DNA of 64,000 bases, from assembly GCF_017255185.1 (NCBI RefSeq), contig NZ_JAFKCZ010000005.1, forward strand, positions 360,872 through 424,871, written 5' to 3'. Position numbers and translations under genes: made by a program. The notes beneath the pieces are model-generated. The model was not told the DNA's origin. It saw only the letters and a list, made by a program, of their open reading frames with translations, and did not search any database. The number at the start of each line of letters is the position of its first letter. The stretch's first letter is position 1. Origin of the DNA: Parahaliea mediterranea. GTDB taxonomy: Bacteria; Pseudomonadota; Gammaproteobacteria; Pseudomonadales; Halieaceae. Below, piece after piece: positions 50,173 to 54,652 of the stretch.

Positions 50173-50469
50173 ATGAAGAGCTTAGATGAATTCAGCAAGA
50201 TGCTGTCGCAGATTAGAGATGAGTACGAGAAAGCGGCTAAGCAAGTAAGCCTGGCGGAGACAGCCGCGAGACTTAGACCAGTTGAAAGCATTGGAGTAAT
50301 CGTACGAGAGGAAAGGTTGAAGCAGGACCTCACACTCAACGAGTTAAGTGATTTGTCGGGTGTAGCCTATGCCACCCTGAGTAAGCTGGAAAGGGATGAG
50401 GTGTCCGTAAGGATAGATACGCTATCCAGGGTGTTATCTGCATTAGGGCTGAAACTGTGGGTAGGGTAG
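50173..50469 (+). CDS. hipB: HipB-like XRE antitoxin/DNA-binding protein
   Basis: 98 residues. The N-terminal helix is followed by an HTH_3 motif (IGVIVREERLKQDLTLNELSDLSGVAYATLSKLERDE in part) and a C-terminal VLSALGLKLWVG strand, as in HipB. It is the first gene of a three-gene hipB-hipS-hipT operon; the hipS start (GTG 50457) lies inside its end, so the two are translationally coupled. HipB should bind the operator and repress the operon; in tripartite HipBST systems it also boosts neutralisation of the kinase, while HipS is the main antitoxin. Confidence 0.88.
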   Translation: MKSLDEFSKMLSQIRDEYEKAAKQVSLAETAARLRPVESIGVIVREERLKQDLTLNELSDLSGVAYATLSKLERDEVSVRIDTLSRVLSALGLKLWVG

Positions 50470-50783
50470 CCCGGGTGCTCTATCAGGGGAGACTTGCCGG
50501 CATCCTTGAAGAGGATGAAGAAGGGTTCTCGTTTACCTACGACAGTGAGTATTTGGCCGGTGGCGTACCGATCAGTTATCAGTTAAAGCTCAGAGAAGCC
50601 GCATACGAGAGCAAGGACTTAATGCCGTTCTTTGAAAACCTGGTATCAGAAGGTTGGCTAAGAAAGCTGCAATCCCGGCAGCAGAAAATTGATGAGAATG
50701 ATCGATTTGGATTGCTGTTGGCAAATGGAAGGGACCTTGTTGGCGCTGTGACGGTAGAGCCGCCGCCTGAAAGTGAAGTTTAA
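50457..50783 (+). CDS. hipS: HipS-like antitoxin (detached HipA N-terminal subdomain)
   Basis: 108 residues matching the N-subdomain 1 of HipA ('Couple_hipA'): RVLYQGRLAGILEEDEEGFSFTYDSEYL, then ISYQLKLREAAYESKDLMPFFENLVSEGW, ..RFGLLLANGRDLVGAVTV (parts shown). In canonical HipA this is fused to the kinase core; here it is a separate gene, the hallmark of HipBST, where HipS neutralises HipT. The GTG at 50457 overlaps the hipB end by 13 nt; a GTG at 50472 is also possible. The hipT ATG follows 2 bp after its stop. Confidence 0.88.
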   Translation: MGRVARVLYQGRLAGILEEDEEGFSFTYDSEYLAGGVPISYQLKLREAAYESKDLMPFFENLVSEGWLRKLQSRQQKIDENDRFGLLLANGRDLVGAVTVEPPPESEV

Positions 50784-50785
50784 AA

Positions 50786-51775
50786 ATGGCCTATTGCAAA
50801 ATTAGCTTGAAAGAAGTGCCTCGCGGTAGCAAATACGAGGACTATCATGACGCGGCATTCAAGAAGCTATTTGGCAGCTTGAAGGTTTCCCCCGTGCTGC
50901 CCTTTTCTCGCAGCGAGTTCAAACAAGATAGCGTTAAATATACGAAAGGGATGTCTATCTCCGGCGTGCACCAGAAGCTCTCTCTAATCATTGATGCCAA
51001 TGGATATCTTTCGCCAGTCAATCAAGGCGGTGAATTTATTCTTAAACCGAGCCCAGAGGAATTTCCGTTTGCGGCTGAGAATGAGCACGCGGCAATGCTG
51101 ATTAGTGATTTGCTCGGAATCGATACAGCCCATTGTGGGCTCGTGGCATTCTCGGATGGTGAACTCGCGTACGTCACCAAGCGTTTCGATCGGCTAGCGA
51201 ACGGTCAAAAGAGGCACCAGGAGGATTTGCTTCAAGGCTTCAATATGCAAAGTGATCGCAAGTACGATAAAAGTTATGAAGAGGCAGGTCGCTTGGTTTT
51301 TGAGATGACTGACGGAAAAAAGTCAGTGGTTTCAGACTATTTACGCAGAGTTGTTTATGCCTATTTGATAGGTAATAGCGATTTACATTTGAAAAACTTG
51401 AGCCTCCAAAAGAATGAGGATAACAAGACGCACTTCTATGACAAGCTAAGCCCTAACTACGATTGTCTATTCACTGATACTTATGAGAGTCTTGAAGACG
51501 CAGGGTTTTTCGCGCTGGACCTGTTCAAAGATGGAGAAACTACAGGGGAATACGACCACTATGGCTATCCTACAGGGTATGATTTTTTAGAACTCTGCCG
51601 GCGCTTAGATATCCCGACAACGATCTTCGCAAAGTTTGTCGATTTGATTGTGAAACGAAAGTCTGAAGTCATTGAGATGATCAACAGAAGTTTTATGCCG
51701 GAGAAAATGAAGGAAAAAGCGTTGGAGACTGTAGAAGATAGGCTTCGTGTCATGCAAGTGGGGGCATTCGAATAG
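50786..51775 (+). CDS. hipT: HipT-like serine/threonine kinase toxin
   Basis: 329 residues, a HipA-fold kinase without the N-terminal subdomain. The Gly-rich loop reads GMSISGVHQKLS with serines exactly at 57 and 59, the S-I-S arrangement described for HipT auto-phosphorylation. The catalytic region is GNSDLHLKNLS (Asp199) and the metal-binding region LSPNYDCLF. Known HipT phosphorylates tryptophanyl-tRNA synthetase and stops translation; the target here is unproven. Third gene of the operon. Codon and base composition are clearly more AT-rich than the flanking chromosome, consistent with horizontal transfer. Confidence 0.9.
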   Translation: MAYCKISLKEVPRGSKYEDYHDAAFKKLFGSLKVSPVLPFSRSEFKQDSVKYTKGMSISGVHQKLSLIIDANGYLSPVNQGGEFILKPSPEEFPFAAENEHAAMLISDLLGIDTAHCGLVAFSDGELAYVTKRFDRLANGQKRHQEDLLQGFNMQSDRKYDKSYEEAGRLVFEMTDGKKSVVSDYLRRVVYAYLIGNSDLHLKNLSLQKNEDNKTHFYDKLSPNYDCLFTDTYESLEDAGFFALDLFKDGETTGEYDHYGYPTGYDFLELCRRLDIPTTIFAKFVDLIVKRKSEVIEMINRSFMPEKMKEKALETVEDRLRVMQVGAFE

Positions 51776-52016
51776 ATTACAAAGGGGTTCTACCCCGTTG
51801 CTTCATGGCCGGAGTATTTTCGCTCGTATATTCGAGCTGCAAATCGGCTATTCGGGAAATTACGTCTAACATGTTGTCGGTTCCGGGGCGCTCGTCGAAC
51901 TAATATTATGAACGTCAGGCTACATTGAGGCCGAGCGGTTGTAAGAAAATTTGCAAGAACAAGGCGGCCAAAATGGCACATATTGACGCGTAGCAGAAGC
52001 TGAATATTTGAGCGAG
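51776..52016. other. Intergenic DNA between hip operon and DRT2 locus, with candidate promoter
   Basis: No gene seen. A small hairpin GCTCG..CGAGC lies at 51822-51837. TTGACG (51983-51988) and TATTTG (52005-52010), 16 bp apart, form a plausible promoter that would start transcription near 52017 and so produce the proposed non-coding RNA. Confidence 0.4.
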
Positions 52017-52135
52017 GTCACAAACTCGGTTTATCGAGCGATTTTAGTGGCAGCCAGCTCCATGATTCGCTTAACTTCGTCTCCCCAATCCGGTAGCCTA
52101 TGAGGGCCTGGTGGCTAGGACGCCAGGGAAAATCA

Positions 52136-52255
52136 CAGGATGTCAAGCCATGCCAGGCCGCCAATACGGCAGCCCGACACGATTGACACCCACGTTGCGA
52201 TGGTCGTCCTCATGGATACCTCCAATGTGATGCTGACATTATACGTCATTGCTAA
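52136..52255 (-). other. Predicted 120-nt cDNA repeat unit encoding a never-ending ORF (neo-like)
   Basis: On the minus strand a perfect TTGACA (52146-52141) lies downstream of a perfect TATAAT (52243-52238), useless in the genome. If cDNA copies are joined end to end with a 120-nt period, TTGACA falls 17 bp before TATAAT, giving a consensus promoter. After it come GGAGGT (52223-52218) and ATG (52213), beginning MRTTIATWVSIV. The frame is open for all 40 codons of the unit and 120 is a multiple of three, so the ORF continues through every junction; in the genome it would stop at a TGA (52135-52133) just outside the unit. Exact ends may shift by up to 5 nt (unit start 52136-52141). Confidence 0.7.
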
Positions 52256-52316
52256 TAGAAGCGGCGGGGCCCGGGTTTCCTGGGTGAGATGGTGAGATAA
52301 GGTCCACTTGGTTAAG

Positions 52317-52364
52317 CCGGGGGAGGATTACGGACAGCCGCAGTCCTATGCCTTCCCCGGTTTT
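52317..52364 (+). terminator. Terminator-like hairpin at the end of the candidate ncRNA
   Basis: CCGGGGGAGG (52317-52326) pairs with CCTTCCCCGG (52351-52360) with one G-U, has an inner GGAC/GTCC stem, and is followed by TTTT. It should end most ncRNA transcripts while letting some read through into the reverse transcriptase gene, which starts 15 bp later. Confidence 0.7.
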
Positions 52365-52378
52365 GCTAGGCTAAATTT

Positions 52379-53656
52379 ATGTCAACGGATGACTGCCAGT
52401 GGTACCGCAATCGTAGGTATTTGCATTTTGATCACCCCATTGGAGTGAAAGCCGCGCGTGAACTCGTAACTAATCCGTTGCGCGTCCAGTCTCATTCGTT
52501 TTACCCCCTTATTACTTACGAGCTTGATTCGGTTAAGATTTTTAAAGATCGGGCCAGTGGCTTAATCGATAAAAAGATTAAAAAGCGTCCAATCATGTAT
52601 GCGGCTCACGCGGATAGCCATATATACAGCTACTATGCAGACCTGCTATCAAAAGAGTATGAGGCTGCATTACTGGCCAGCGGCTTGTCTGGGAATATTC
52701 TTGCCTTTCGGCCATTGGGAAAGAGCAATATTGACTTTGCTGCGCAGGCATTTAACGACATAAGGCTAATGGGGAACTGCGCAGCAGTTGCGCTTGATGT
52801 CACTGCATTTTTTGACAATTTGGATCACGAGATTCTGAAAGATGCGTGGTGCGGCCTGATAGGTGAACCCCGTTTACCTCCAGATCACTATGCTGTTTAC
52901 AAAGCTATTACCAAGTTTTCAAAAGTCTCCAAGCTGGAAGTATACGATAAGCTCGGAATTTCAACGCATAACCCTAAAAATAATCGCACGCGTATTTGTG
53001 AGCCTGCCGAATTTCGCAATGTTGTTCGCGCAGGTGGCTTAATCAGTGCAAACACTGACTCATTTGCAATTCCCCAGGGGTCCCCTATAAGTGCTCTTCT
53101 TTCGAATATTTACATGTTCGCGTTTGACGAGTGGTCTGCTGATTTGGCGGCAAGTTTAGGGGGGGAGTACTACCGATACTGTGACGATATTCTGTTTATA
53201 GTGCCCGTTAGTGAGAAAGATAGGGTTGCGAACAAGGCGCGTAAAAAGATTCGTCGTCTGGAGCTCGAAATAAACAAGGAAAAAGTTGAGATTCGGACCT
53301 TCAAAGTTATTAAGGGGAGGCAGGCATCTGACAAGCCGCTTCAATATCTAGGTTTTACTTATGATGGCGAAAGAATCTTGATACGTTCTGCCGCATTGGC
53401 TCGATACTCGGAGAAGATGAAAAGGGGAGTCAAATTTGCCAAAGCGACAATGCGGAAGCGAAATAGACTGCGTGATGCTCGTGGCGAACCAACGAAGCCT
53501 TTGTACCGAAAAAACCTCTATCGCTTATATTCGCATACGGGGCGGCGAAACTTTCTCCGCTATGGCTACCGGGCTGCAGAAAAAATGAATTCTCCCGCTA
53601 TTCGTAAACAGCTAAAGCCTCTTTGGGAGCGCCTACAAGAAGAGATAGAAAGGTAG
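52379..53656 (+). CDS. drt2: Defence-associated reverse transcriptase, DRT2 (UG2) type
   Basis: 425 residues. RT palm landmarks: Asp140 in VALDVTAFFDNLDH, the IPQGSPISALLSNIYM motif (231-246), and the catalytic YCDD at 267-270 in YYRYCDDILFIVP. The N-terminal YRNRRYLHFDHPIG, SFYPLITYEL, HIYSYYADLLSKEYE and GKSNIDFA segments are, as I recall them, characteristic of DRT2. There is no maturase, endonuclease or X domain, which argues against a group II intron, and no retron-type NAxxH/VTG motifs were noticed. DRT2 makes concatemeric cDNA from its ncRNA and blocks phage by expressing a toxic endless protein after infection. ATG 52379 has only a weak ribosome site. AT-rich, within the defence island. 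Confidence 0.88.
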   Translation: MSTDDCQWYRNRRYLHFDHPIGVKAARELVTNPLRVQSHSFYPLITYELDSVKIFKDRASGLIDKKIKKRPIMYAAHADSHIYSYYADLLSKEYEAALLASGLSGNILAFRPLGKSNIDFAAQAFNDIRLMGNCAAVALDVTAFFDNLDHEILKDAWCGLIGEPRLPPDHYAVYKAITKFSKVSKLEVYDKLGISTHNPKNNRTRICEPAEFRNVVRAGGLISANTDSFAIPQGSPISALLSNIYMFAFDEWSADLAASLGGEYYRYCDDILFIVPVSEKDRVANKARKKIRRLELEINKEKVEIRTFKVIKGRQASDKPLQYLGFTYDGERILIRSAALARYSEKMKRGVKFAKATMRKRNRLRDARGEPTKPLYRKNLYRLYSHTGRRNFLRYGYRAAEKMNSPAIRKQLKPLWERLQEEIER

Positions 53657-53811: not shown

Positions 53812-53991
53812 ATGACTGGCGGAACTAAGCGGAAAGGTGGCGGCAGTAGCGATAAGAAGAGGAATACTAAGTACATCGATCATGGCAATAGTCGTGCCGG
53901 TGCAAGCGACCCAAGCCATCCAAAGGATGGCCCTAAGAGACCGGGGCCAAAGCTGACGTCTAGTGGTGGTCCCGGCAAGCAGGGAAGCTAG
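53812..53991 (+). CDS. Small Gly/Lys/Ser-rich protein of unknown function
   Basis: 59 residues, starting MTGGTKRKGGGSSDKK and ending TSSGGPGKQGS; basic, without hydrophobic segments, probably disordered. An excellent TAGGAGGGA ribosome site precedes the ATG. The membrane-protein gene begins 7 bp after its stop, so both form a two-gene operon. I do not recognise the family. Its place between a defence reverse transcriptase and a tRNA gene suggests a defence or mobile-element role, by association only. Confidence 0.7.
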   Translation: MTGGTKRKGGGSSDKKRNTKYIDHGNSRAGASDPSHPKDGPKRPGPKLTSSGGPGKQGS

Positions 53992-53998
53992 GCCGGGT

Positions 53999-54397
53999 AT
54001 GGACCTTCAGACTTACCGGGGATACTACGAGGCGCGATCTGCAACTGCGAGCAATGTGGCTCGCCAGTCGGCCTTCGCGGGTATCGCGCTCGTTTGGATA
54101 TTTAAGGACCAGGTGGGTCAAGAGTTTGCTCTGCCGATGGGGCTGTTATACCCGACCATCTGCATGATGGTGGGCTTAGCAGCGGACCTTATGCAATACG
54201 TCGTCGCGAGTGCTATATGGGGCTTCTATTGTCGCATTAAAGAGAAGGAATTCGATCCAGACCCAAATCCGGAGTTTCGCAATCCGAACTGGATCAATTG
54301 GCCTGCGCTGGGCTTGTTTTGGTTGAAGCTTGCGGCAGTACTCGTTGGCTATGTCTTGTTAGTTAAATATGCGATTGGCGCAATTCACTTCAATTGA
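53999..54397 (+). CDS. Small multi-span membrane protein of unknown function
   Basis: About 132 residues. A short N-terminal helix (DLQTYRGYYEARSATASNVAR) is followed by membrane segments near 23-36 (FAGIALVWIFK), 46-77 (GLLYPTICMMVGLAADLMQ, YVVASAIWGFYC) and 102-126 (LGLFWLKLAAVLVGYVLLV). A soluble, Pro/Asn/Asp-rich loop (KEKEFDPDPNPEFRNPNW) lies before the last span. ATG 53999 follows AGGCCGGG; an upstream in-frame start at 53963 would overlap the previous gene. Coupled with the 59-residue Gly/Lys protein. A membrane effector paired with a small basic partner would fit an abortive-infection unit, but that is a hypothesis. Confidence 0.75.
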   Translation: MDLQTYRGYYEARSATASNVARQSAFAGIALVWIFKDQVGQEFALPMGLLYPTICMMVGLAADLMQYVVASAIWGFYCRIKEKEFDPDPNPEFRNPNWINWPALGLFWLKLAAVLVGYVLLVKYAIGAIHFN

Positions 54398-54575: not shown

Positions 54576-54652
54576 TGGCCCGCCCGAGAGGATTCGAACC
54601 TCTGACCTTTGCCTCCGGAGGGCAACGCTCTATCCAGCTGAGCTACGGGCGG
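54576..54652 (-). tRNA. tRNA-Arg (anticodon CCG), CCA encoded
   Basis: Full cloverleaf on the minus strand: acceptor CCGCCCG / CGGGCGG, T8 A9, D-arm GCTC..GAGC, anticodon stem TTGCC / GGCAA with loop CTCCGGA (anticodon CCG), T-arm AGAGG-TTCGAAT-CCTCT, discriminator G and genomic CCA at 54578-54576. Its 3' end faces the defence island, the usual orientation for islands integrated in tRNA genes. Confidence 0.97.

Follow-up and report, generated by a model that had tools for sequence, protein, structure and literature searches.

The window, a 64,000-nucleotide stretch of Parahaliea mediterranea DNA, very probably carries a DRT2 system in which a reverse transcriptase (RT) would copy a template RNA head to tail, the junctions of the copy creating a promoter for a stop-free gene, neo, whose product would halt the infected cell. 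As described in parts of Wilkinson et al. (PMC12039810) and Tang et al. (PMC11100668), such an RT holds an RNA and, on phage infection, copies its template repeatedly into double-stranded concatemers; each junction gives rise to a promoter, and the stop-free message encodes a repeat protein that stops growth. The same mechanism is described or cited in sections of a 2025 structural paper (PMC12596737) and of a DRT10 preprint (PMC12632851). The window locus thus likely belongs to a known defence, the mechanism of which was published in 2024, and brings no new one. The features on which this reading relies are the following (position 1 is the first letter of the window).

52105..52370, plus strand: noncoding template RNA, predicted, with approximate ends (5' from homology to locus L116, 3' from the RT-12 match)
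52107..52127, plus strand: 5' handle hairpin (alignment fold of 12 loci, columns 86-106)
52133..52135, minus strand: TGA that closes the frame after 26 codons, in linear DNA only
52135..52137, plus strand: ACA-1, 5' end of the template and first jump anchor (same place relative to the -35 element in 14/14 close loci)
52135..52254, plus strand: 120-nt template, the minus strand of which is the predicted repeat unit, neo (from promoter spacing and the single open sense frame)
52141..52146, minus strand: TTGACA, perfect -35 element, read in the sequence
52211..52213, minus strand: ATG start codon, 24 nt after the -10 element (equal distance in 13/13 close loci)
52218..52223, minus strand: GGAGGT ribosome-binding site, read in the sequence
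52238..52243, minus strand: TATAAT, perfect -10 element, read in the sequence
52253..52369, plus strand: RT-12 RNA (RF03016), 3' scaffold of the template RNA (Rfam)
52255..52257, plus strand: ATA where ACA-2 would stand, the second jump anchor, at a distance of exactly 120 nt from ACA-1
52379..53656, plus strand: DRT2 reverse transcriptase, 425 residues, YCDD active site (PADLOC, NCBIfam, PDB 9c0i)
54576-54652, minus strand: tRNA-Arg gene

On the minus strand, TATAAT (52243-52238) comes before TTGACA (52146-52141) in the genome, and a head-to-tail repeat of 120 nt brings the two hexamers into the right order with a 17-nt spacer across the junction. Among the three cDNA-sense frames of the repeated unit, one is stop-free and the other two contain stops. 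Read from the ATG at 52213, the open frame gives MRTTIATWVSIVSGCRIGGLAWLDILLAMTYNVSITLEVS, a hydrophobic unit of 40 residues, while in the linear genome the neo frame runs for 26 codons and then meets the TGA at 52135-52133, just outside the unit. A first-pass annotation, made from the letters of the window, had already placed TTGACA, TATAAT, GGAGGT and ATG at these coordinates, and our re-reading found all four there; the hexamer positions likewise bear out its 120-nt unit with a 17-nt spacer, and the stop-free ATG frame with a TGA directly outside the unit is present in the sequence as it had reported. It had set the unit at 52136-52255, which gives the right concatemer, but the published ACA rule puts the template at 52135-52254; the concatemer is identical for both since positions 52135 and 52255 carry the same base.

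The arrangement closely follows that of the Klebsiella DRT2/neo locus. Both have TATAAT and TTGACA out of order, a 17-nt junction spacer, a 120-nt repeat, a start codon with a ribosome-binding site and 26 codons visible in the linear DNA, the last of these being given for Klebsiella in a portion of the Tang et al. 2024 preprint (PMC11100668). The Klebsiella Neo sequence differs from the predicted Neo of the window. By analogy, the 120-nt template (52135-52254) would be copied head to tail into concatemeric cDNA, every junction would create a TTGACA-17-TATAAT promoter, and this promoter would drive a stop-free 40-residue repeat protein. The steps along this path, namely phage-triggered reverse transcription, re-annealing of the cDNA end to the second anchor, second-strand synthesis, transcription, translation and growth arrest, are borrowed from the DRT2 literature, and we infer the cDNA, the Neo protein and the defence at the window locus in the same way.

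The identity of the RT is clear. Its ORF (52379-53656, plus strand) is intact and full length, with 425 residues, and scores 654.8 bits with the PADLOC Drt2 model, 582.7 bits with the NCBIfam Drt2 equivalog NF041746 (cut-off 390) and 505.8 bits, end to end, with the solved Klebsiella DRT2 (PDB 9c0i). The YCDD motif corresponds to Y267, C268, D269 and D270 and is invariant in a 4-row alignment. The best retron model reaches only 43.8 bits (cut-off 235), the group II intron RT model TIGR04416 68.6 bits (cut-off 300) and the Drt3a model 52.5 bits (cut-off 200), and these three identities were rejected; an Rfam search of the window at gathering threshold found no group II intron RNA family. PADLOC, NCBIfam and the similarity to Klebsiella DRT2 agree with the first-pass view of this neighbouring gene as a DRT2. 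The window RT and that of Klebsiella pneumoniae are of the same family from end to end, and in both an RNA lies upstream of the RT. The genome that contains the window has a single DRT2-type gene and one further weak RT match.

The RNA upstream of the RT is likely a noncoding template RNA. Its 5' limit was taken from DNA homology to the nearest relative, L116, which begins at about 52105, and its 3' limit (∼52370) from a match to RT-12 (RF03016) directly upstream of the RT (52253-52369, 71.7 bits, gathering 44.2). RT-12 was also found in 11/11 close loci searched together and in L142, whereas a search of the close locus L143 returned none. The Rfam family spans the 3' scaffold only, without the template, and its consensus starts with UAACA where the window RNA has UAAUA. 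An alignment fold of 12 loci predicts 41 pairs, of which 27 show changes on both sides; the 5' handle hairpin accounts for 8 pairs, 6 of them changed on both sides in one row or more. None of 200 shuffles folds as well as the window RNA (52098-52372). A simple scan of 51776-52400 found no promoter-like site for the template RNA. The left arm of a basal stem was sought by RNA duplex prediction and rejected, the helices differing between loci; a middle pair of that stem seen by eye (G-C in L116, A-U in the window, outer pair lost) was not counted. A sub-threshold match to Rfam RT-8 (29 bits, gathering 87) at 52289-52367 overlaps the RT-12 scaffold, hinting that RT-8 may be another DRT2-type scaffold.

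How often could such a layout arise by chance? An open frame alone is weak evidence in GC-rich DNA: some open circular frame occurs in 40% of 5,000 mononucleotide shuffles of the window unit and in 3,085 of the 3,454 120-nt tiles of the window. The geometry of the split promoter is strong evidence. On both strands of the 64-kb window, this is the sole perfect TATAAT with a TTGACA starting between 60 nt before and 160 nt after it. We then applied one constant rule, requiring two perfect hexamers at spacer 17 within set position windows. When the upstream sequences of 42 DRT2 loci were shuffled in two-base blocks, 8,400 shuffles yielded 22 pairs, 7 with a period divisible by three and 1 with an open frame. 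The 2,132 plus-strand control tiles, cut from loci whose RTs are of other or remote kinds (L011-L027, L039-L111), contained a single pair, not divisible by three. The position windows were chosen after the first loci had been seen, and a Clostridia set fetched later was used as the test.

The strongest evidence for reading the locus as a putative endless gene is the comparison with related loci. DRT2 loci were gathered from species genomes, plasmids, phages, E. coli genomes and viral contigs, and the close clade comprises 14 of them: the window, L028, L116, L142, L143, L030, L112, L113 and L032-L037. All 14 have a split promoter at spacer 17, an open frame and a period of 111, 117, 120 or 132. 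Both hexamers are perfect in 11 of them and the other three (L112, L032 and L037) have one mismatch. The start codon, a GTG in L028, lies 24 nt after the -10 element in 13/13 loci scored by script, and at the same distance in L037 by eye; in 12/12 units examined, a single sense frame is open, and that frame exceeds the other two in hydrophobicity. The conservation of the split promoter, the open frame and a period divisible by three, which the first-pass annotation had asked for among homologues, is thus observed throughout the close clade. That annotation had also regarded homologues with an interrupted frame or without the hexamer pair as evidence against it. In the close clade no frame is interrupted, and the three loci with one mismatch keep both period and frame; in the wider family, 30/56 loci lack a perfect pair while the RT is mostly intact, which runs against the expectation, and in 10 of these 30 a pair with one mismatch follows the rule. 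Between the window and L116 units, substitutions show no third-position excess in the neo frame, and a synonymous-versus-nonsynonymous signal was consequently not used as evidence.

L116 is the nearest relative, with 70% protein identity between the RTs. DNA homology to the window starts at about 52105 and extends, by translated match, to the end of the RT gene; the flanks compared gave no other DNA match at E 1e-5 except one stretch of 69 nt. The locus thereby resembles, on sequence grounds, what a movable RNA-plus-RT module would look like. L159, the contig that holds L116, also has the 69-nt stretch (51793-51861, 77% identical) upstream of its DRT2 module, at a different distance, and the stretch could be a shared element end. 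DRT2 is uncommon in related taxa: it was found in 2/140 genomes of the family, 8/293 of the order and 2/369 of the class, the own genome being included in each count, and 3/5,426 E. coli genomes gave a DNA match.

The window departs from the published systems at the second jump anchor, a point absent from the first-pass annotation. In Klebsiella-like systems, ACA stands at both template ends, according to parts of Wilkinson et al. (PMC12039810) and Tang et al. (PMC11100668), whereas the second anchor of the window is AUA. Among the 14 close loci, the second anchor is ACA in 10, AUA in 2 (the window and L030), GCA in 1 (L037) and ACU in 1 (L143). AUA or GCA would pair with a TGT end through one wobble, and ACU would lose one end pair. 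In the window, the TGT end of the cDNA, copied from ACA-1, would re-anneal to AUA by one G-U wobble, giving the junction TTGACATCCTGTTAGC; alternatively, the jump may occur before the middle anchor base is copied, giving TTGACATCCTATTAGC, that is, CTATTA instead of CTGTTA. Both would read Leu-Leu and keep the period. The exact in-register anchor run of the window is AG only, equalled or exceeded at 35 of 80 shifted offsets, and exact identity of the two anchors was thus rejected as proof of the 120-nt period; the run of L143 is also not above controls (27/80). Taken over 26 loci, exact in-register runs at the period set by the promoter total 100, and 20,000 draws at shifted offsets never exceeded 56. 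Loci of Clostridia and their phages have ATTG, GTAT, TATTA or similar sequences as anchors.

The AUA anchor opens another reading, namely a true DRT2 locus in which template jumping was weakened or lost by anchor drift from ACA to AUA, leaving the RT and the frame as recent relics. It accords with the anchor run not exceeding the shifted controls and with a result in a section of Tang et al. (PMC11100668), where disrupting the homology between the ACA motifs abolished defence. We nevertheless consider it improbable: the RT is full length, the promoter perfect and the frame open, the TGT end can pair with AUA through a single wobble, and L030, on another branch of the tree, also combines AUA with a perfect promoter and an open frame.

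Two further explanations would do without the repeat altogether. The minus-strand frame might be an ordinary small gene, read from the genome itself and encoding a 26-residue peptide from the ATG at 52213, as its good ribosome-binding site and its end at the TGA at 52133 would allow; but the -10 element in the linear DNA has no -35 element at 16-18 nt, no promoter-like site was found in 51776-52400, and such a peptide leaves the period divisible by three in the relatives unexplained, which makes this account highly unlikely. That the arrangement is fortuitous, upstream of an RT working otherwise, is scarcely credible. Open circular frames are indeed common in GC-rich DNA, yet the full combination appeared once among the 22 pairs from 8,400 shuffles, the control tiles gave one pair, and the layout is common to 14/14 close loci. 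We retain the reading of a predicted endless gene copied from the template RNA.

We then asked how far the rule extends in the wider family. Counts refer to 56 of 59 loci, L126, L130 and L147 being excluded because their upstream sequence is short and L037 (272 nt) being kept by name; where a locus has several perfect pairs, the one-pair count took the -10 element nearest the RT. A perfect pair at spacer 17 is present in 26/56 loci. Of the 33 pairs in these loci, 30 combine an open frame with a period divisible by three; when each locus is represented by a single pair, the figure is 25 of 26. Each of the 25 obeying loci has exactly one open cDNA-sense frame, in 21 of them the -10 element is followed by a start codon that has a ribosome-binding-site-like stretch, and the open frame is hydrophobic in all 25, another frame being more so in L120, L121, L135 and L150. 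The Clostridia set fetched later gave a perfect pair in 7/11 loci, with 9/10 pairs divisible by three and open; two loci of this set, L151 and L153, are near-identical. The pair of L031, on plasmid pDVUL01 of Nitratidesulfovibrio vulgaris, breaks the divisible-by-three rule (145, spacer 17); this locus has an in-register ACTG run and is open at 144 with spacer 16.

Ten of the 30 loci that lack a perfect pair have one with a single mismatch that obeys the rule (L112, L032, L037, L008, L009, L122, L129, L131, L132 and L156), L129 having in addition one that does not obey. No obeying pair with up to one mismatch was found in L114, L133 (Calothrix), L003, L115 (Moraxellaceae), L004-L006, L123-L125, L127, L128, L134, L141, L144-L146, L152, L157 and L158. 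One-mismatch pairs that do not obey occur in L115 (at 120, frame not open), L125, L128 and L134; in wider position windows L145 has an open one-mismatch pair at 111, and for L152 and L158 doubtful placement of the start codon may have concealed the elements. The loci left without a pair come from Cyanobacteria, Moraxellaceae, Bacteroidota, lactic acid bacteria, some Clostridia and distant RTs of the window's order. They may use other promoters, as Wilkinson et al. (PMC12039810) speculate, or the rule may miss them.

Loci of Clostridia and phages (L007, L009, L010, L120-L122, L135, L139, L140, L148-L151 and L153-L156) show a split sigma-70-like promoter and an open hydrophobic frame, have ATTG, GTAT or similar anchors in place of ACA, and have periods of 126-168 at the -10 element nearest the RT, divisible by three. 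The RNA family RT-6 was found in 8/18 Clostridia-type loci (L007, L010, L139, L009, L140, L149, L156 and L157), identified as PADLOC Drt2 where checked (L007, L009, L010). Seven of these eight share with the window the split promoter, the period divisible by three and the open hydrophobic frame, with one mismatch in L009 and L156, and no pair was found in L157; unlike the window, they have ATTG or ATT as anchor, periods of 126-153 and a different RNA family. RT-13 was found in 2/4 alphaproteobacterial loci (L129 and L128). Alphaproteobacterial plasmid loci L129, L131 and L132 have open one-mismatch pairs at 129, 141 and 132, respectively, and L128 has one only at spacer 16 (period 123). A scan of viral sequences with the single window protein found no relative; a pattern scan of viral contigs found three loci (L117-L119), which stand outside the analysis, as does L038, whose RT is cut at the contig end.

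Regarding the surroundings, three overlapping or adjacent plus-strand genes just upstream of the DRT2 locus (50173-51775) carry HTH, HipA N-terminal (Couple_hipA) and HipA_C domains; they look like a tripartite HipBST-type toxin-antitoxin operon. Between the RT and the tRNA-Arg gene lies a 144-residue ORF (53963-54397, plus strand) with no Pfam or NCBIfam match. The tRNA-Arg gene was considered and rejected as an integration site, its region having only 11-12 nt matches elsewhere in the window and the tRNA downstream of the same-family locus L116 being tRNA-Met.

What the window adds to the known defence is an anchor variant and a rule that extends to distant clades: a split promoter together with a period divisible by three makes an endless gene recognisable in raw sequence. 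With anchors that are not ACA/ACA, the window is a natural test of wobble tolerance in re-annealing. A section of the Tang et al. preprint (PMC11100668) notes that Neo annotation is more challenging in divergent DRT2 clades, suggesting alternative mechanisms, and a partial literature search found no report of neo in Clostridia or of a link to RT-6, RT-12 or RT-13. For distant DRT2 loci, the rule suggests neo genes in clades that had proved hard to annotate in published work, and it connects Rfam RT-6, RT-12 and RT-13 with DRT2 loci. We consider it probable that the endless gene is the ancestral DRT2 design rather than a Klebsiella-like speciality, and that the jump anchor is what evolves. If so, deep clades, above all Clostridia, would still build a sigma-70 promoter and a stop-free hydrophobic repeat gene, with ACA as anchor in Gammaproteobacteria (including AUA, GCA and ACU variants, the window among them) and ATTG or GTAT in Clostridia and their phages. 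The decoding rule, a period equal to the hexamer-start distance plus 23 nt, divisible by three and with the anchor one period apart, would then reveal neo genes hidden next to RT-6 RNAs and perhaps next to RT-13 RNAs.
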